Shown here piece by piece: positions 15,392-42,039 of a DNA stretch of 42,039 nucleotides. This DNA comes from a virus: the IMG/VR virus record IMGVR_UViG_3300035670_000483, positions 1 to 42,039 of that record. One strand, given 5' to 3'. A program made the position numbers and the translations under genes. Every line of letters begins with the position of its first letter. Positions within the stretch are counted from its first letter, which is position 1. The notes under the pieces were generated by a model that worked only from the letters and a program-made list of their open reading frames with translations, was not told where the DNA came from and searched no databases.

Positions 15392-15467
15392 TGGTGCCTG
15401 TTGTAGGAATCGAACCCACGACATCCTCGTTACAAGGGAGGCGTTCTACCAACTGAACTAAACAGGC
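15392..15467 (-). tRNA. tRNA-Thr (anticodon UGU)
   Basis: On the minus strand the 76 bases fold into a full cloverleaf. The acceptor stem is GCCTGTT with AACAGGC, the D arm GTTC/GAAC, the anticodon loop CTTGTAA reads UGU (Thr, ACA codons), and the T arm GTGGG-TTCGAAT-CCTAC has one G-T pair. CCA is encoded after discriminator A. The base pair closing the anticodon loop (31:39) is C-C, a mismatch. It lies downstream of the capsid terminator, inside the late transcript. Confidence 0.95.
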
Positions 15468-19893: not shown

Positions 19894-19914
19894 CTTCATA
19901 GTGCTGTGTTTCAT
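19894..19914 (-). promoter_or_regulatory. phage RNA polymerase promoter P2
   Basis: The minus strand reads ATGAAACACAGCACTAT then GAAG, identical to P1 and P3. CACTAT followed by GAAG matches the core and start of the SP6 promoter (CACTATA then GAAG) and is close to that of T7, so the predicted first base is G at 19897. The resulting leader is only 26 bases before the 54-residue gene. Confidence 0.8.
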
Positions 19915-20051
19915 AGGCTGTGTCTCCGTTGGATACTCTTATAGGCTGTCTCTATATCAACACCGGATAGCCTATGGTTTCTGTATAACCTTTGCAGGTA
20001 GTAGCTGTAACTTCTGTATCTAGGTTTACACATCAGCAGGTCATGTTCCTC

Positions 20052-20197
20052 ATCTATTACCTTGCCTCTCTAACTTCCGTTAGTGTACTGGTGTACCACC
20101 TCCCTCTTCTGTGCGGGTGTGTGAAGGGATTCTCATCCAGCTAAGTATTTATCCTTAGCCATGCTGCCCCATAGGGGCCCGCGGGAAGCCTTGCTTC
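20052..20197 (-). ncRNA. structured leader RNA, copy 1 (late transcript)
   Basis: Starting at the predicted +1 of promoter P1, the RNA can form: hairpin GAAGC-AAG-GCUUC (20197-20185); GCCCC-UAU-GGGGC (20178-20166); GCUAAG/CUUAGC (20159-20140); GGAU-GAGA-AUCC with a GNRA loop (20138-20127); CCC/GGG around a conserved ten-base loop GCACAGAAGA (20117-20102); GGUG-GUA-CACC (20100-20090); CUAAC-GGAA-GUUAG (20083-20070); then the conserved GAGGCAAGGUAAUAGAU. The inverted copy at 39178 keeps all of these with compensatory changes in three stems. It contains no gene. Role is unknown; it could be a regulator, a packaging or replication RNA, or a stability element of late mRNA. Confidence 0.8.
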
Positions 20198-20214
20198 ATA
20201 GTGCTGTGTTTCAT
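20194..20214 (-). promoter_or_regulatory. phage RNA polymerase promoter P1
   Basis: Same 17+4 base element as P2 and P3 on the minus strand, with predicted first base G at 20197. It overlaps the TAA stop of the methylase-like gene. It would drive the late genes through the structured leader. Confidence 0.8.
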
Positions 20215-20897
20215 TAAGCCTTTGAATTTGCTAGGAATACTGCCTTGGCAAAACCCCTTGGAGTAGCCGAACGTATGTTCTTAGTCTTTAGAGATTTACC
20301 ACCCAACTTTTTATACTGATCTGAATAGCCAGCCTCTACCGTGACTGGGTCCTTTGTAGGCATCACGAACCCCCCGCCAGCCCATATGCAGGTTTTCTTT
20401 GGGTAGGCATCCCTAGGCTTAATATACTGAGGGTACTGTGGGTGCTGGTCTCCCTCAGGAAGGTATCCCCCGTACTCCCACGGATGAAACGTATAATCTG
20501 GTTTTCTCCAGAGGGTTGATAATACCGATACCGGGTTCTCCGCACCCCAAGGACAAGAATATAGCTCACCTACTTCTTGTACTAGCTTGGCTAACCTAGC
20601 CGCATGTATTTGTATGTCAGGGTTAACCGCTAGTTTCTTCTTGAAGTGTGCAGTTCCGCTTACGGCTAGATGGGTGCACTCAGGGAAACCAAACACAAAC
20701 TGCACCCCCTCACCTACCAGCTCACCTATAGATTGGGCACTATTGGGGTATAGCCACATTCCTACTGTTATGTGAAGCCCGTTCCTATGTACCCCCTCAG
20801 GGTGCTGCCCATCAAAGCACCAGCACTCATACCCAGCATCTAGCCAAGGTTGGGCCATAATCCCAGTAAAGTCATACAAAAATATAGCTTTCTTCAT
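20214..20897 (-). CDS. cytosine-methylase-like protein
   Basis: This 227-residue protein begins MKKAIFLYDFTGIMAQPWLDAGY, a degenerate SAM-binding motif I of C5-methylases. FGFPECTHLAVSG at about residue 70 stands where motif IV (PCQ) is expected, here Pro-Glu-Cys; GAENPVSVL near 120 resembles motif VI (ENP/ENV); the C-terminus ATPRGFAKAVFLAN is shared by a family of phage proteins loosely annotated as C5 DNA methylases. The Pro-Cys pair is broken by Glu, so activity on DNA is uncertain. It follows the RNA polymerase gene by 16 bases. Promoter P1 overlaps its end. Confidence 0.65.
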   Translation of the reverse strand: MKKAIFLYDFTGIMAQPWLDAGYECWCFDGQHPEGVHRNGLHITVGMWLYPNSAQSIGELVGEGVQFVFGFPECTHLAVSGTAHFKKKLAVNPDIQIHAARLAKLVQEVGELYSCPWGAENPVSVLSTLWRKPDYTFHPWEYGGYLPEGDQHPQYPQYIKPRDAYPKKTCIWAGGGFVMPTKDPVTVEAGYSDQYKKLGGKSLKTKNIRSATPRGFAKAVFLANSKA

Positions 20898-20913: not shown

Positions 20914-23349
20914 TTAACAAAAGAAGAATTGGCTTGAATTTACATAGTCTAATTCTAGTGTGCCTATGCTTAACTCCGGCATGTTGTACTGTGCCGCCAG
21001 CTCAGCTAATACAGTACAAGTCTTGTGCATATTAACAAATTCCCGCCGGAGTATATTGTGCAGCCTGCCAGCATCCGCTGCATGTGTACCAAAAGAGTCA
21101 TGGACAGATACGAACTGGATGCCCTCTATATGGCAGGTGTCCAGAGTCTTTAACAAGTGGCTAGCATCCAAGCTGTGTACGAAGTTAGGGCTAATACCGT
21201 TGGCTGCTTTGTTAGGCTCAGGAACGTTAGTACGGTTGTACACCTGTATGCTACGGGTCTTGTACACCCCTAAGGCTACATGCTGTTTGTGTTCCTTCCC
21301 GTACTGATTGACTACCTGAGCCCCTGTAGGTGTAGTCCACATTACATGTTTCCCTTCTTGAGCAGCATTACGGGCCAACTTACGCAACCAGTCCATACAT
21401 TCTACAGCCGCCGGCACCACGTCCCGCATACTGGCCATGAACTTGCTGGCAAGATATAAACCAAGCCGTCTAGTGGAGTACCCTTCAGGGATAGCCGCGC
21501 CTGTATCATGCAGGTAATCACACATGTCCCCGGCAATTCCCACAAGGGTAGCCCCATACACAAAGGTCATGACAGGGGGCTTAGCCAATGCCCGAGGGAT
21601 TCCGTGCTCAACCCAGAACTTGGCTTCCAGCAAGTCCTTGCACTCCGGGTCAGCAGCATCCTGCTTGCACCTATCTAGGACTATGCTGGCCGCGTAGCTG
21701 TAAATGTCTGCCTTCTGCCCAGGATGATCTATTAGGTTAGTCCACTTCCCTCCTACTGGGTCACGTAGCAGAGCAGAGAAAACTTGTAACCCGGAACAGG
21801 TGGCATCCCACTGGGTAATGCACCGGCTCATATAAGTCTCTGGGCTGCCTGTGTTAAGGGCGTTGACCAGCTCTAGTGATGCCACATAAGCACACATTGG
21901 GGAGTCTGCCTGCTCCCAGAAGTCTTGATGTAGCTGGGGTATTACTATAGCCTCCCTCAGTCTAGATAGCATCTTCTCAACGTACTGGGCGCGGGAGTCA
22001 AAGCCTTCCTTGTCAAAGCCGAAGCAATTGGCTATATGCACCTTCAACCAGTACAGTCCTTCCTTGCCCAGGGGCTTGGCCTCGGCCAGTTCCAGCAGGG
22101 CCTTCTGGGAGTCTACTCCTTGAGGGTTAAGGGTAGTGTGATAGTACAGGCGGCCCCGTGTGTCTGCATAGGTAGGCAAGTAAATGGCATTATAATCCTT
22201 GACTCGTTGGGCGTCTCGGAGGGCACGATACACAGAGTTAATCACAGACTTGTAAGTCTTCTGCTTGTCATGCCAACGGCGGCGCATGTCCCGGTACCAT
22301 GTACACTCTTGTACCAGTTCTTCATCCCCTCTTAGCTTGGCCTCTTTGATGAATGCAGAGATATTCACTACTCCAGTCAGAAATGGTGGGGTAGGCGGCT
22401 CCCGTGGTGGACTGGGTAGTCCGAACCCGCCTGAGCCTATGACAGCCTCCAGCAGGGTTAGGGCGGCGGCATTAACCCGGTATGGTACAGCACTGAGCTT
22501 ATCCAGTCCTTGCATCACAGGGGACATATCCAGCTTGAGGGCTCGATAGTCCTTACTGCGCATACCAGTAAGCCCCAAGTAATTAACTCCTAACTCCCCG
22601 GAGTAGTACATACCCCCAATTCCTTGGGGGTTAACCGGAACAGGTGGACGGAGTAACACAGGGTTACAGCGGTTAGGGTTAGGCCGCTCTAACACCCCCT
22701 CAATAGACTCCGCTACCTCTGGATGCAGCTCTACAGTGTGGACTGGGCTACCCTTGCCGGTAGCTGTGCGGGTGAACTGGAACAGCCCGGTGCCCTCCAA
22801 GGCATCCACAACCAGTCCGCCTATAGTCACGATGCCGGTAGGCTGTAACTCCGCTGGGGGAATCCCCATGTTGTTCAGGGAGGCCCGTACCGTCCGGTAA
22901 GCATGGTTCACGTCCTTGGTCTTCCGGTCGGCCAGTTGCTCCTGAATAATCTGGCAGTACATGGGGTTAACCTTGCTAGCCCGTTTGAAGTTGTACTCAG
23001 CCAGCACTGCCTTGCCTATCCCTTTGCAGGCCGCGGCCAGTGTGCCTTTGGTAAGGGCCACCTCCACCATGATGGACAGGCCAAGGCAGGCTACCTCTGC
23101 CTCCCCAACATCACGCAACATACCGCGGTAAGCCCCGCCCCAGCCACGGGAGCGGGTCTCGGTAATCTCCTTGAGCTTGGCTTCTACGGCAGGAAGGGCC
23201 AAGGCCATAGCCCGGTACAGCAGGGGTACAGTTTCGTAAGTCCCCTCTGACATACAGCGGCGCACCATGCCCACCCACTCTGTATGCCGTGTCAACAAAG
23301 CCTGTTGCTCATACGCAACGTGTTCTTCAATAGAGAGTTCAGGGAGCAT
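20914..23349 (-). CDS. single-subunit DNA-directed RNA polymerase
   Basis: This 811-residue T7-type polymerase (T7: 883) transcribes the late genes. Palm Asp is in QWDATCSGLQ (about residue 514), the fingers helix KPPVMTFVYGATLVGI supplies Lys and Tyr (about 590-598), and the second catalytic Asp is in SVHDSFGTHA (about 751). The protein ends FFFC, where T7 ends FAFA; the C-terminal carboxylate and aromatic residues reach the active site, so a Cys end is noteworthy. Position directly before the structural genes is the phiKMV hallmark. Its promoters are most likely the three repeats found here. Confidence 0.97.
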   Translation of the reverse strand: MLPELSIEEHVAYEQQALLTRHTEWVGMVRRCMSEGTYETVPLLYRAMALALPAVEAKLKEITETRSRGWGGAYRGMLRDVGEAEVACLGLSIMVEVALTKGTLAAACKGIGKAVLAEYNFKRASKVNPMYCQIIQEQLADRKTKDVNHAYRTVRASLNNMGIPPAELQPTGIVTIGGLVVDALEGTGLFQFTRTATGKGSPVHTVELHPEVAESIEGVLERPNPNRCNPVLLRPPVPVNPQGIGGMYYSGELGVNYLGLTGMRSKDYRALKLDMSPVMQGLDKLSAVPYRVNAAALTLLEAVIGSGGFGLPSPPREPPTPPFLTGVVNISAFIKEAKLRGDEELVQECTWYRDMRRRWHDKQKTYKSVINSVYRALRDAQRVKDYNAIYLPTYADTRGRLYYHTTLNPQGVDSQKALLELAEAKPLGKEGLYWLKVHIANCFGFDKEGFDSRAQYVEKMLSRLREAIVIPQLHQDFWEQADSPMCAYVASLELVNALNTGSPETYMSRCITQWDATCSGLQVFSALLRDPVGGKWTNLIDHPGQKADIYSYAASIVLDRCKQDAADPECKDLLEAKFWVEHGIPRALAKPPVMTFVYGATLVGIAGDMCDYLHDTGAAIPEGYSTRRLGLYLASKFMASMRDVVPAAVECMDWLRKLARNAAQEGKHVMWTTPTGAQVVNQYGKEHKQHVALGVYKTRSIQVYNRTNVPEPNKAANGISPNFVHSLDASHLLKTLDTCHIEGIQFVSVHDSFGTHAADAGRLHNILRREFVNMHKTCTVLAELAAQYNMPELSIGTLELDYVNSSQFFFC

Positions 23350-27241: not shown

Positions 27242-27913
27242 GTTTGATTCCTAATGATTTCAGATAGTTACGTTTGAATTTAGCCAAGGCTTCTGCATCT
27301 ACCTTGACGTGTTGCTTCTCGAACATACTGGCCCCGGCCTCAACCTCAACAGGGAACGGTACGTTCAAGGTGTACTCAGGCCAGATGGCCGTGAAGTATT
27401 CTGGGATAACCTCCATAATCCCCTTGATTGCTAGGGCCGCCTCGGCCAGTACGTCTTTGTGACAGTCATAATATGCGGCATCATGCACTTGGTTAATGGG
27501 TAGGCACTTACCCCCAAGGAAGTTCTTGGATAGAAAGTACCGGAACATCAGGCCACAGATTCCCTGCATCCAAAAGGCAGTCTCCCCTTGGATACCGTAG
27601 TTCCGCATCTCAGTAGGCTTATACTGCATAACCTGCTGGCCCTGCACACGGCGTAAGTGCTGGCGGAAAGAGTAACACGTTCCACCTGGGCTACGCCAGT
27701 ATCCTCTCTTGTAAATGCGCCAGACTCCATCATCAGTCTGTTCCCGGTGCATGTTCTTGGCCCCGGTTTCTTCCACCATCGGGAATACCTTAGTCTCATA
27801 GAACTGCTCAACCTCGGGGAACAGTGCCTTCTCTGCGTCAATAAAGGCTTGCGCATCCTCTACTGTACAGCCCGTGGCAAAGGCAATGCCATGAGCTGTT
27901 GCACCATATTGGT
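27234..27913 (-). CDS. DNA polymerase I-type, exon 2
   Basis: This exon encodes residues 568-793 of the spliced polymerase. The first whole codons after the splice give QYGATAHGIAFATGC, completing motif B (R-x3-K-x7-YG) begun in exon 1. Motif C is in INQVHDAAYYD (about residue 710 of the spliced protein), carrying the second catalytic Asp. Exon lengths 1702 and 680 sum to 794 codons including stop. A run from 27779 could be read as a separate frame, but it is the same frame continuing from the splice site. Confidence 0.93.
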
Positions 27914-28553
27914 CTCATGTATTCAACAGGGGGCGTTAGTCCCTGCCCGTTCTCTTATGAACTGCTGCATGTTCCCATGCAGGATAGACTATCTCATCAT
28001 GTGTTCCCACATGCTATGCGCTTCCACCCACTTGGGTGTACTCCCTCTCGGGATAGTCGTTACACCTTACGAAAGGCCAACCAACATTCGTGTTCAATCT
28101 GGTGGCATCTCTTACATACCAACTCCAGATTACTCTTCACGTTATTGTCTCGGTTGTGGTCTTTATGGTGTATCAGGAAGTTAGCATCCTTCTCATGCCA
28201 TTCCCCGCAGTGTGCGCAGAACCCTTCCTGTTCAGCATAAAGGTCATTCAAGAACCACGCCCTATACTTCTGAGAATGGCAGCCTCCCTCGTTAGCCCCA
28301 CCAGACCCGACCCCTGCATTACCCCCGCGCTTCTCGGTACGCTTGTAGCTTTGCTGGCGGTCCTTTACTAACTTACGGAAGGCTTGGCATTCACCGCAGA
28401 ATGGCTGGGAATTCCCGGTAGGTACAAACACAGTAGGGCATGCCCGGCATTTACGCGGCTTATGTTGCATCTTGAATCCTCTCATCTTGGCTCGGTATTG
28501 CCCGGTCTGGGTGTCCACCGAATTCACATAGTTTTACTTGCGCCATTATGTTA
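27914..28553 (-). other. group I intron (640 nt) in the DNA polymerase gene
   Basis: Splicing after GCGT (28554) and before ACCAA (27913) makes the polymerase read KAFAYQYGATAHG. The 5' exon end UUUGCGU pairs with GCGCAAG (28543-28537) across a ten-base loop, with the expected U-G at the splice site (P1). The intron ends in G (27914). GACTAT (28058-28053 on the minus strand) and ATAGTC (27992-27987) are perfect complements and suit P7, with GAGATAGTC in typical context. The intron houses an HNH endonuclease gene in the loop between P1 and the core. Confidence 0.92.
28060..28470 (-). CDS. HNH homing endonuclease in the intron
   Basis: The protein has 136 residues from ATG 28470 (MQHKPRKCRACPTVF), preceded by AGAGG at good spacing; GTG 28527 or ATG 28485 would lengthen it. 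A first zinc ribbon uses CRAC and CGEC; the HNH domain reads FCAHCGEW, then FLIHHKDHNRDNNVKSNLELVCKRCHQIEH, with catalytic His pair and metal-binding Cys pairs. Such enzymes nick intronless alleles to spread the intron. It ends just before the P7 region of the intron. Confidence 0.93.
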   Translation of the reverse strand: MQHKPRKCRACPTVFVPTGNSQPFCGECQAFRKLVKDRQQSYKRTEKRGGNAGVGSGGANEGGCHSQKYRAWFLNDLYAEQEGFCAHCGEWHEKDANFLIHHKDHNRDNNVKSNLELVCKRCHQIEHECWLAFRKV

Positions 28554-30255
28554 ACGCAAAGGCTTTCGGCTTCACATTAGTCCGTAGCTTCTTGTACTCT
28601 TTGTGGTCAGGGTGCGTCTCATCCTTGCACTTCTTGAGGACTTCCTCATAAGGCTCCCCAAGCTGCTGGGCCAGACGCATACAGTGCATGTCTGTGCCGC
28701 TGACCAGCGCCTCCATTAGAGCCTTGTCTTGGCTGAATGCAGCCAAGCCTACCACCTCCAATGCAGAGTAGTCTGCCTCAATGATTACCCCGTCCTCTCC
28801 AAAGCGAGAAACAAACATTTGCTTCACATCGGACGTATCCCCCCGAGGGATATTCTGTAGATTAGGCCGATTAGAGGATAATCTACCGGTGACGGTACTC
28901 GTCACGTTCAGGCTGTGGTGCACAATCCCGCTGGGCTGCGCGTACTGCAACATGCCGGACACCTTCCCGCCATCGTCCTTTAGATAGTACGTCCCAATGT
29001 CCTTGTCCAAGGCGGCCAGCTCATGCATCTGCTTAGGCCCGTTAATGTCCAGAGCAGCCAGTACCTTGAGCACATCCCCGCTTGAGCTGTACACTGGAGA
29101 CCCATCACACAAGGTGCGCTTTCCTACCCACTCATCCTGTGCTACGGCCTTAATGTCCTTGGGCAAGGATTGTATAGGACAGAGCCCCGGGAGTTGGCAA
29201 AGCAAATCCCCCTTCTTGGTCTGTGGTACTGTGCCGGGCACTTCCACAAACTTGGGCTGGCCTTTGTTCTTGCCTGCTTTATACACGGCTTGGTGGGTCT
29301 TGGTTGGTACGTGGTAGTACAGCCCAGAGTTAGCATCGAACATAAGACCATCGTTAGTCCCAGCCTTGAGGCTTTCAAAGTAAGGGGCCAACACTTTCTC
29401 ATAAATAATATTCCCTTCTGCATCCGTCCGGTTAACCCGGCCCTCGTACTTCATCACCCCGCCGAACAGGAAGGATGACACATGGTAGTCCGAGCTGAGC
29501 TTGAACTGGGCCCGTGCCTCCTCCGGCATATCGGCTGGGAGCATGGCGGTAATCTCTGCCCGTAGCTCAGCAGCCCTAGCACTGGACTTCTCAAGGTTAG
29601 ACATGGCTACTTCCATATCAATCTTGAGGCCATTGTGCATACACTCAGAGAAGAACAGCATTCCCTCCATTCTGACCAGTGCCATCATGAGCATACCCTG
29701 CTCGGACAGCTTGGCCCACTGCCTCAGGAATACCTTGGTAGTATTTTCCACGTCCCCTTCCGGGCCTGACAGGTACTCACTCAGCAGCTCAGGGTCAATC
29801 TGTGAAGTCAGGAAGCCCTGCTCCCATAGTATCTTCACCCCGTCCACCTTCTGTGTACCGCCGTACACCGGGGCTATTTCGTCCAGGCTGGGGTATCTGT
29901 CTTGCTGGTGGCTCAGCAGGTAATGCGCGTAGGCGGTACAGAACACCCTCCCCCCTCGCTTGAGGAAGGTCAGGAATTCATCCCGGTAGTGCATCAGCCA
30001 CCATGACATTTCATAAGGGGCGTTGTGCGCCACCAACATATCTACCCCGTCCAGGTGCAGGGCTTTCTTGGCTAACCAGTCCTCCCGGCTAGTGAAGCGT
30101 TCCTCCAGTCTGGGGTGCTGGGTTACTCCCTCTGGTAACATATCCACCAGCCTGTACCCGTCCATGACAACGTAGTTATCAGGGCAGCGTGGTGAGGCCA
30201 GTTCCCCGTACCATGGGTTTGACTCGGTCTCGATATCTCGTATCATTACTCGCAT
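28554..30255 (-). CDS. DNA polymerase I-type, exon 1
   Basis: This exon holds residues 1-567 plus the first base of codon 568. Proofreading motifs: Exo I IRDIETES (Asp7, Glu9), Exo II VAHNAPYEMSW (about 75), Exo III YLSGPEGDVENT (about 165). Polymerase motif A is IEADYSALEV (about 493). The exon stops inside motif B, after RTNVKPKAFA, where the intron begins; unspliced RNA would give a stop three codons later. Replicates the phage genome; T7 gp5 analogue. No thioredoxin-binding loop is obvious. Confidence 0.95.
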
Positions 30256-39160: not shown

Positions 39161-39181
39161 ATGAAACACAGCACTATGAAG
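39161..39181 (+). promoter_or_regulatory. phage RNA polymerase promoter P3, facing away from the genes
   Basis: Identical 17+4 base element to P1 and P2 but on the plus strand, predicted first base G at 39178. It reads toward the non-coding tract and would be antisense to the late-end genes beyond 40143 if not stopped. Confidence 0.78.
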
Positions 39182-39325
39182 CAAGGCTTCGGGCCCGTCC
39201 CTATGGGACAGCAGGCTCTGGGGAACCGCCCTCAGGGTGGATGAGAATCCCTTCACACACGGGCACAGAAGACCGAGGTGGCACACCATTACACTGATGA
39301 TAATCAGGGAGGCAAGGTGATAGAT
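39178..39325 (+). ncRNA. structured RNA, copy 2 (plus strand, near presumed genome end)
   Basis: Inverted homologue of the leader RNA at 20052-20197. Hairpins: GAAGC-AAG-GCUUC (39178-39190); GUCCC-UAU-GGGAC (39197-39209); a bulged CUGGGG/CCCUCAG; GGAU-GAGA-AUCC (39239-39250); CGG/CCG around GCACAGAAGA (39260-39275); GGUG-GCA-CACC (39277-39287); CUGAU-GAUA-AUCAG (39294-39307); then GAGGCAAGGUGAUAGAU. Against copy 1 the second, fifth and seventh hairpins differ by compensatory base-pair changes (one, two and two pairs). Loops and linkers GCACAGAAGA and CUUCACACAC are unchanged. A 27-codon frame starts in the promoter itself but has no ribosome site and is not kept in the other copy. Confidence 0.8.
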
Positions 39326-40142
39326 ACGGAACCAAGGTAAAGAATCCAATAGATACAGACTGAACCTATAGATATAGATACCAAGGATATGGATACTGAT
39401 ACCCGCTAGCACAGCTCCTAGGTACAGGACAGGTCACGGGGCGGAGCCCCAGGTATAGAGGGTGCAGGACAGAACAGCCCATAGATAGGCCCGGCAGTAG
39501 CCCTGAAAAGAGGTAGGGAACAAGGGCAGGCACCAGCCATAGGTAGCCAAGGAATAGGCATAGGGTAGCCAAGGGATAGGCCAGGGTAGGCAAAAGAGGT
39601 AGGAGGGTAGGCCAGTAGGCACAGGGAGGTAGCCTAGGGATAGGCAGAAAAGAGGTAGATGGGTCAGGACACTCCCCAGCCCACCCCTCCCCACCCACCA
39701 CCGCCAAGCCCTACCAAGCCCGGCAGAAGCCCTAGCCAAGCCCAACAACAGGGCGGAGCCCTAGTACTAGTAGGTGCAGACCAGTCCAGCCCAGCACAGG
39801 CCCCGGACATAGCCCTAGCCATGCACCAACCAGACACCATGGCTGCCCACCGCCTAGCCTGTACACACTACACATAGCACACACAAGACAGGCAAGGAAC
39901 AGGCCCTAGGACAAGCCCAGGGCCATACCCTATGCCTACCCATAGCCTATCCCCATGCAATGCAGCATAGAGCGTTCTAGGGCCATCCCCGGCCATGCTA
40001 TAGGCCCAGCCTAGGCCAGGGTAGGCACTACCCCCGGTCTAGCCCAGCCCCAGCATGGCGGGTACCCCTACGGGGGAAAGGGAGGGGCTGGCTGGGTCGA
40101 GGACACCCTCGCAAATCTGCACCATTTTTAGCCCGAACCGGT
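39326..40142. repeat. low-complexity TAGG/CCTA-rich non-coding tract
   Basis: About 800 bases without a convincing gene on either strand. From about 39380 the plus strand is built from degenerate short units such as GGTAGGC, GGGATAGGC and GTAGCC, turning to CCTA/CCCAGC-type units after about 39670. A unit GGGGC-GGA-GCCCC followed by an AGGTGCAG-like stretch (39438-39450 on) recurs at 39750-39762 as AGGGC-GGA-GCCCT. T7-like phages carry arrays of short repeats beside their terminal repeats, so the physical genome ends and packaging site probably lie here. Confidence 0.6.
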
Positions 40143-41778: not shown

Positions 41779-42039
41779 TCGTATGTCTCGCCCATGCTGG
41801 TGCAGGTAGCACCCAAAGTAATAACAACAGGGGCGGAATCAGGCCAGCTAAGAAGGCTATCGCCAAACTCTCTGTATCGTTCCCTGTGAGGTTCACAGTC
41901 TCAGCCTGTACGTTCCCCGTAGTGAAGGACTGGCGTTGCTGTACGGTCTTTTTAGAGGCCTTGGTGACAGTGTTTACTACACCGGCCTGGTCTACGTCTA
42001 CATTAGGAGAAACCTCAGAAGACTCCTCCTGTGCGACAG
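41711..42039 (-). CDS. spanin-like lipoprotein, C-terminal part (cut by window end)
   Basis: Right-hand copy of the gene that begins at 368. It ends with a membrane-spanning stretch SLAIAFLAGLIPPLLLLLWV and a 25-30 residue polar tail (RHTNGRAEQRAVSGTGEAGD), then stops at 41711, overlapping the holin-like gene by 68 bases. Joined to the left part it makes 163 residues. See the entry at 1-368 for the function argument. Confidence 0.75.
   Translation of the reverse strand, partial: VAQEESSEVSPNVDVDQAGVVNTVTKASKKTVQQRQSFTTGNVQAETVNLTGNDTESLAIAFLAGLIPPLLLLLWVLPAPAWARHTNGRAEQRAVSGTGEAGDTGMPS
41835..42039. repeat. right copy of 205-bp end overlap
   Basis: Direct repeat of 1-205 with a single difference (41912 G, 78 A), silent in the lipoprotein gene. 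Confidence 0.93.

Follow-up and report, generated by a model that had tools for sequence, protein, structure and literature searches.

The structured RNA described here is very probably real: two inverted copies of it occur in one phage genome, each beginning exactly at the start of a predicted phage promoter, and the two sequences differ in a way that preserves their fold. As far as we have searched, it would represent a previously undescribed class of structured phage RNA located next to a promoter. Tentatively, we read it as the 5′ leader of a leftward transcript made at the genome end, which would have been duplicated onto a late promoter and which most likely acts in cis. The analysis covered a virus record of 42,039 bases (IMGVR_UViG_3300035670_000483; the window), in which genes lie on the minus strand. 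Coordinates are collected in Table 1.

Two copies of the RNA preserve a common fold

A preliminary description of this DNA had proposed that the predicted transcripts from promoters P1 and P3 start with homologous RNAs. Both the positions and the inverted homology were borne out. BLAST aligned the two regions as inverted repeats with 80% identity over about 173 nt, and 108 of the 148 columns in the alignment of the two RNAs are identical. The shared fold contains 12 doubly compensated base pairs and 2 pairs changed on a single side, together with 21 invariant pairs and none that is broken. Five compensated pairs in three stems had been listed previously. The listed changes are all present (U-A to C-G in stem 2, GG/CC swaps around GCACAGAAGA, and G-C to A-U and U-A to C-G in the last stem), but the full count is 12.

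The evidence for covariation comes from two paralogues in one genome, and was assessed against nulls obtained by column shuffling and by random substitution. Shuffled alignments (n = 1000) contained a mean of 2.4 compensated pairs and a maximum of 7. RNAalifold gave an energy of -47.0 kcal/mol for the two copies, compared with -18.9 ± 3.6 kcal/mol for shuffled alignments (z = -7.8). As a guard against circularity, we also derived the structure from one copy and scored it on the other. This gave nine compensated pairs, whereas 20,000 random-substitution trials had a mean of 1.1–1.3 and never exceeded 7; the other copy also had far fewer broken pairs than the null predicts. Taken singly, the P3 copy had a folding energy that did not stand out (z -1.3), and that of the P1 copy was moderate (z -2.95). 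The earlier claim that RNA structure is under selection thus stands against both nulls. A promoter region might instead have been duplicated recently, with a leader that is under no selection; only two sequences are compared, and promoter duplications are common in the phiKMV-like group. As not one of the 1000 shuffles or of the 20,000 random-substitution trials reached the observed compensation, this explanation is extremely improbable.

The signal depends on the strand. The reverse complement of the alignment folded with -33.6 kcal/mol, against -47.0 kcal/mol for the forward strand (z -4.2 and -7.9, respectively), and G-U pairs occur among the conserved pairs of the fold. The weaker signal of the reverse complement, together with the conserved G-U pairs, indicates an RNA made from the predicted transcribed strand. 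This asymmetry, and the exact start of the domain at the predicted transcript start, argue against an element acting as DNA, such as a replication origin, or a site of recombination or packaging with hairpin-forming strands. Phage promoters double as origins in T7, and inverted copies at the end and in the middle of the genome would suit such an element, which we nevertheless consider very unlikely.

Three other identities were considered and rejected. Reading frames are interrupted and are not common to both copies, which excludes a coding sequence; there is no T-run behind the last hairpin, as an intrinsic terminator would require; and the CUGAUGA of the P3 copy, reminiscent of a hammerhead ribozyme, sits in a hairpin that reads CUAACGG in P1.

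Table 1. Positions of the RNA copies, promoters and neighbouring features in the window, and of promoter pairs in related phages
Feature	Position	Strand	Remarks
P3 copy of structured RNA, 147 nt	39178..39324	+	12 compensated pairs with P1 copy; covariance model R1
P1 copy of structured RNA, 145 nt	20053..20197	-	same alignment and covariance model R1
Long-range helix, 5′ strand (GCUUCGGGCCC)	39186..39196	+	columns 9-19 with 84-87 and 96-102; 4 compensated pairs
Long-range helix, 3′ strand	39261..39279	+	bulge ACAGAAGA at 39265-39272
P1-copy long-range helix, 3′ strand with bulge ACAGAAGA	20098..20116	-	5′ strand at 20179-20189
Hairpin S2, GUCCC-UAU-GGGAC	39197..39209	+	1 compensated pair
Hairpin S3	39215..39238	+	nearly all replaced between copies; 4 compensated pairs
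Hairpin S4, GGAU-GAGA-AUCC	39239..39250	+	GNRA loop; invariant in alignment
Hairpin S6, CUGAU-GAUA-AUCAG	39294..39307	+	2 compensated pairs
P3, predicted phage-RNAP-type promoter	39164..39181	+	exact 18-mer; leftward in genome sense; equivalents in relatives
P1, predicted promoter	20194..20211	-	exact 18-mer; 3 nt past end of methyltransferase-like gene
P2, predicted promoter without the RNA	19894..19911	-	exact 18-mer; upstream of structural genes
Methyltransferase-like gene, phrog_757	20214-20897		adjoins P1
40-codon ORF (MCKPRYRSYSYYLQRLYRNHRLSGVDIETAYKSIQRRHSL)	20007-20095 region	-	between P1 RNA and P2
Non-coding stretch of predicted P3 transcript	39325..40142	+	inferred to hold terminal repeat
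Large terminase gene	365-2113
Lysis-type genes	41778-40143		followed by 1-kb intergenic stretch, then early genes
205-bp contig end repeat	1-205 and 41835-42039		between terminase and lysis-type genes
G014 promoter pair	22103/613		RNAP-forward coordinates; terminal repeat 1-416
G019 promoter pair	21196/459		RNAP-forward coordinates
G020 promoter pair	20098/367		RNAP-forward coordinates
J8-65 promoter pair	19869/549		RNAP-forward coordinates
LIMEzero promoter pair	20741/655		RNAP-forward coordinates

Architecture of the fold

A long-range helix of 11 bp closes a multiloop with three hairpins (S2, S3 and S4). Its strands pair GCUUCnnGCnn with nnGC-[ACAGAAGA]-nnGAGGU, in which ACAGAAGA is an invariant bulge of 8 nt. 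The 3′ domain consists of hairpin S6 and a weaker closing helix with one compensated pair. Loops had been described as constant between the copies, which holds for the GNRA hairpin S4 but not throughout, as the loop of the last stem is GAUA in one copy and GGAA in the other, and S3 is almost wholly rebuilt.

A separate 3-bp hairpin had also been drawn around GCACAGAAGA. The swaps on which it rested are present, but this hairpin uses half the columns of the long-range helix, and the same GG/CC swap recurs in the 5′ segment at columns 14-15 and 18-19, so that the small hairpin is better read as part of that helix. With the other helices fixed, the long-range helix was favoured over the small hairpin by about 7 kcal/mol in both copies, and it had a probability of 0.59 in the alignment ensemble, against 0.37 for the hairpin. 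The unconstrained minimum-energy fold of P1 alone used the small hairpin, and two states of similar energy are therefore possible. On these models the CGG/CCG hairpin probably belongs to the long-range helix. Alternatively, the 5′ segment may form a hairpin, GAAGC-AAG-GCUUC, or it may mediate dimerisation via an 8-nt palindrome, which is kept in both copies (CGGGCCCG, CCCGCGGG) despite base changes; predicted dimers lie about 7-11 kcal/mol below two monomers.

The palindrome and the dimer energies would also suit a non-coding RNA acting in trans. Such an RNA would be produced from two gene copies and cut from longer transcripts, and would bind terminase, a host RNase or a defence protein, or dimerise. 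The conserved loops, bulge and linkers resemble a binding surface, and two source loci would raise dosage. However, the long-range helix explains the palindrome columns equally well, an RNA acting in trans does not need the same promoter-start register in both copies, and we found no terminator or processing signal at the RNA end. We regard a trans-acting RNA, including the packaging RNA guessed at in the preliminary description, as somewhat less likely than a cis-acting leader, but as its one serious competitor.

Promoters and predicted transcripts

The 18-mer AAACACAGCACTATGAAG occurs three times in the window without mismatch, where 0.04 copies would be expected by chance. Repeated near-identical promoters are found here together with a gene for a single-subunit RNA polymerase (RNAP), as in a T7-type promoter set, and relatives have the same arrangement; P1, P2 and P3 are predicted transcription starts. 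P1 and P2 are positioned after the RNAP region, while P3 lies upstream of the early genes and is directed away from them. P1 and P3 each directly precede about 150 nt of homologous sequence. The predicted P1 transcript reads through the 40-codon ORF, which had no homologue in phages or relatives, and on into late genes; structural mRNA could also come from the nearby P2, without the RNA. No ORF follows the RNA in the predicted P3 transcript. The first part of the sequence behind the P3 RNA (39426-39625) is purine- and G-rich by composition, the stretch contains tandem-like short repeats, and no ATCTGTT pause site was found near P3.

The phage is a divergent phiKMV-like autographivirus. Compared with the enzymes of LIMEzero and J8-65, its RNAP reaches an identity of no more than about 39% and its large terminase one of about 55%, and families of both the large and the small subunit of a T7-type terminase were found. 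The gene order (terminase, lysis-type genes, 1-kb intergenic stretch, early genes) indicates that the contig is circularly permuted, and the terminal repeat is therefore not directly visible. We infer that the true genome end lies at about 39.3-40.1 kb, with the terminal repeat within the non-coding stretch behind the P3 RNA, a position taken from relatives. As the 205-bp repeat at the contig ends falls between the terminase and lysis-type genes, it is probably an assembly overlap rather than the phage terminal repeat.

Two further RNA features were seen elsewhere in the window. The DNA polymerase gene is likely to contain a group I intron at 27912-28554 (-), where the Rfam Intron_gpI model matched with 29.4 bits, under its gathering score; the alignment with the J8-65 DNA polymerase falls into two segments that part at residues 594/596, and the interval encloses an HNH-like ORF (28060-28527). 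A tRNA gene (15395-15467, minus strand; Rfam tRNA, 66.4 bits) lies downstream of the major capsid gene.

Searches for homologues

Rfam covariance models gave no match for the RNA, and no hit to the pRNA-type family at E <= 1. A blastn search of the RNA against 50,697 phage records returned no homologue. Degenerate motif scans of viral (IMG/VR) contigs and bacterial genomes yielded few hits, none of which matched the covariance model, and model R1 found nothing credible in 32 whole records or in the loci related to RNAP (80) and to terminase (13). One weak hit (L017; 14 bits, E 0.75) was treated as chance, and promoter-like matches in other viral contigs proved to be unrelated DNA. Neither Rfam nor the phage collections searched thus include the RNA; the preliminary description had known of none like it in T7-like phages. 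It had also proposed looking among related phages for homologues that share the pairing, and none turned up.

Leftward end promoters and leaders in related phages

Self-comparison of related genomes revealed a recurring inverted pair: one promoter coincides with the end of the RNAP gene or lies close to it, and its copy near the left end reads leftward (Table 1). In one relative (G008) the forward copy is instead upstream of the RNAP gene, at a distance of about 1.6 kb. The window phage fits this arrangement, as a late promoter stands beside its RNAP gene and the copy at the early genome end reads leftward. With up to two mismatches allowed, LUZ19 (L167) contains the motif TATGTCACMYACANNGGA four times and no more, at 21118, 21315 and 35593 (+) and at 748 (-). 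The motif is distinct from the phage-specific promoters of the GenBank annotation (CGACCCT...CTACTCCGG). The leftward copy has the terminal repeat (1-472) on one side and the annotated sigma70 promoters (913-1182) on the other. In both LUZ19 and G014 the leftward promoter is oriented so as to read into the terminal repeat. A role in head-on interference with the early host promoters was rejected, because the LUZ19 leftward promoter is upstream of them and directed away. A description of the leftward promoter was not found in the literature searched, which did not extend to most subscription papers; in JG068, a phage promoter is reported to overlap the first of the host promoters at the left end (PMC3765740).

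The LUZ19 leftward leader is carried by 94 Pseudomonas phage records. It is strongly conserved over its first ~85 nt, with an invariant 6-bp hairpin, and continues into variable purine-rich sequence. The leftward leaders of LIMEzero/G004 and of Bonnellvirus are hairpin-rich with moderate signals (z about -2.3), and the G014 leader pair contains 6 compensated pairs (z = -2.8). Covariation was not significant in the five leader pairs of G003, G008, G010, G013 and G029, and a z of -4.2 for the LUZ19 pair was left uncounted on account of its poor alignment (36/92 columns identical). The leftward leaders of LUZ19, phiKMV, LIMEzero and J8-65 resemble the arrangement at P3, with a left-end promoter, which at P3 too would be directed toward the terminal repeat, and then a hairpin- and purine-rich non-coding leader; most of them do not share a long leader with their late promoter, whereas the window phage does. 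In several relatives the late copy has a short 5′ UTR and the long leader is found on the leftward copy only, so that the leader appears to belong first to the leftward transcript. By covariance model, the window RNA has neither sequence nor fold in common with these leaders, that of LUZ19 included, and a function common to them would therefore be an extrapolation.

These comparisons bear on whether the RNA could be an mRNA leader, either shielding phage transcripts at the 5′ end or adjusting how the 40-codon ORF and the late genes behind P1 are translated. Stable 5′ structure commonly protects mRNA, and the predicted course of P1 transcripts would allow it. Against this stand the lack of an ORF behind the P3 RNA, an ORF behind P1 that has no homologue, a second promoter (P2) that would drive the late genes without the RNA, and the relatives whose long leader is only on the leftward copy. 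We consider an mRNA leader unlikely. Regulation of late translation, another of the roles guessed at earlier, loses ground with it, since the comparative evidence favours the leader of an end-transcript.

Discussion

The promoter and its folded RNA are probably a real control element. The covariation, the strand preference and the exact promoter register of both copies are counted in favour of a cis-acting leader of an end-transcript, as are the predicted P3 transcript with no ORF following, the leftward promoters and conserved leaders of relatives, and the occurrence of P2 without the RNA. In this element a promoter for the phage RNAP would be joined directly to a folded RNA of 147 nt, and two transcripts would begin with that RNA; the leftward copy, at P3, is presumably the primary one. 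From P3 the phage RNAP would make a non-coding transcript, the folded RNA first and then outward through the terminal repeat, and would hence cross the concatemer junction during replication. The nascent RNA would fold behind the polymerase and act in cis on that polymerase or on the transcript, and the effect could be processive transcription of the end region, or an end prepared for replication or packaging. The P1 copy would give the same property to the late transcript.

Such an arrangement would work like the putL/putR pair of phage HK022, but with a single-subunit polymerase. We know of no put-like activity on an RNAP of this type. HK022 makes two homologous structured nascent RNAs downstream of two promoters, with putL just past its promoter; they are ~70 nt long, with two stem-loops, and their target is the E. 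coli RNAP, a multi-subunit enzyme (PMC9378689). The window phage likewise has two homologous copies behind promoters of opposite direction, P1 (-) and P3 (+), but its RNA is ~147 nt long, has at least five helices and follows a promoter of the single-subunit-RNAP type. It is not a put RNA, as neither its length nor its stem-loop count agrees, and the anti-pausing or antitermination that put RNAs exert on the transcribing RNAP might be extended to it by analogy only.

Two other systems invite comparison. The pRNA of phi29, 120-174 nt long, is a non-coding RNA whose gene lies at the left end of the phage genome, as that of the window RNA would. The window RNA is not a pRNA, as it has no Rfam match and its phage has a T7-type terminase instead of the phi29-type packaging ATPase; to our knowledge, a T7-type terminase is not known to use an RNA. 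The T7 promoters phiOL and phiOR read rightward, and we know of no folded leader of the present kind at T7 end promoters. The activity proposed here for the phage RNAP at the terminal repeat does have a parallel in T7, whose RNAP pauses at the concatemer junction, where its activity has been tied to maturation and packaging (Zhang and Studier 2004, as cited in PMC3276506).

It is possible, though we hold it with considerable doubt, that phiKMV-like phages in general use an unrecognised leftward end-transcript with a structured 5′ RNA needed for replication, maturation or packaging of the end, and that in the present phage this RNA has become a large, duplicated fold acting directly on the single-subunit RNAP or on terminase. 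We know of no structured RNA described at the start of transcripts made by T7-type polymerases in the Autographiviridae. The LUZ19 motif suggests that the annotated phage promoters may not be the real late set. If the leftward end-promoter is active, an overlooked transcript would be added to a well-studied phage group, and a question would arise that can be tested in LUZ19 with the laboratory host PAO1: why the phage polymerase transcribes outward through the terminal repeat.
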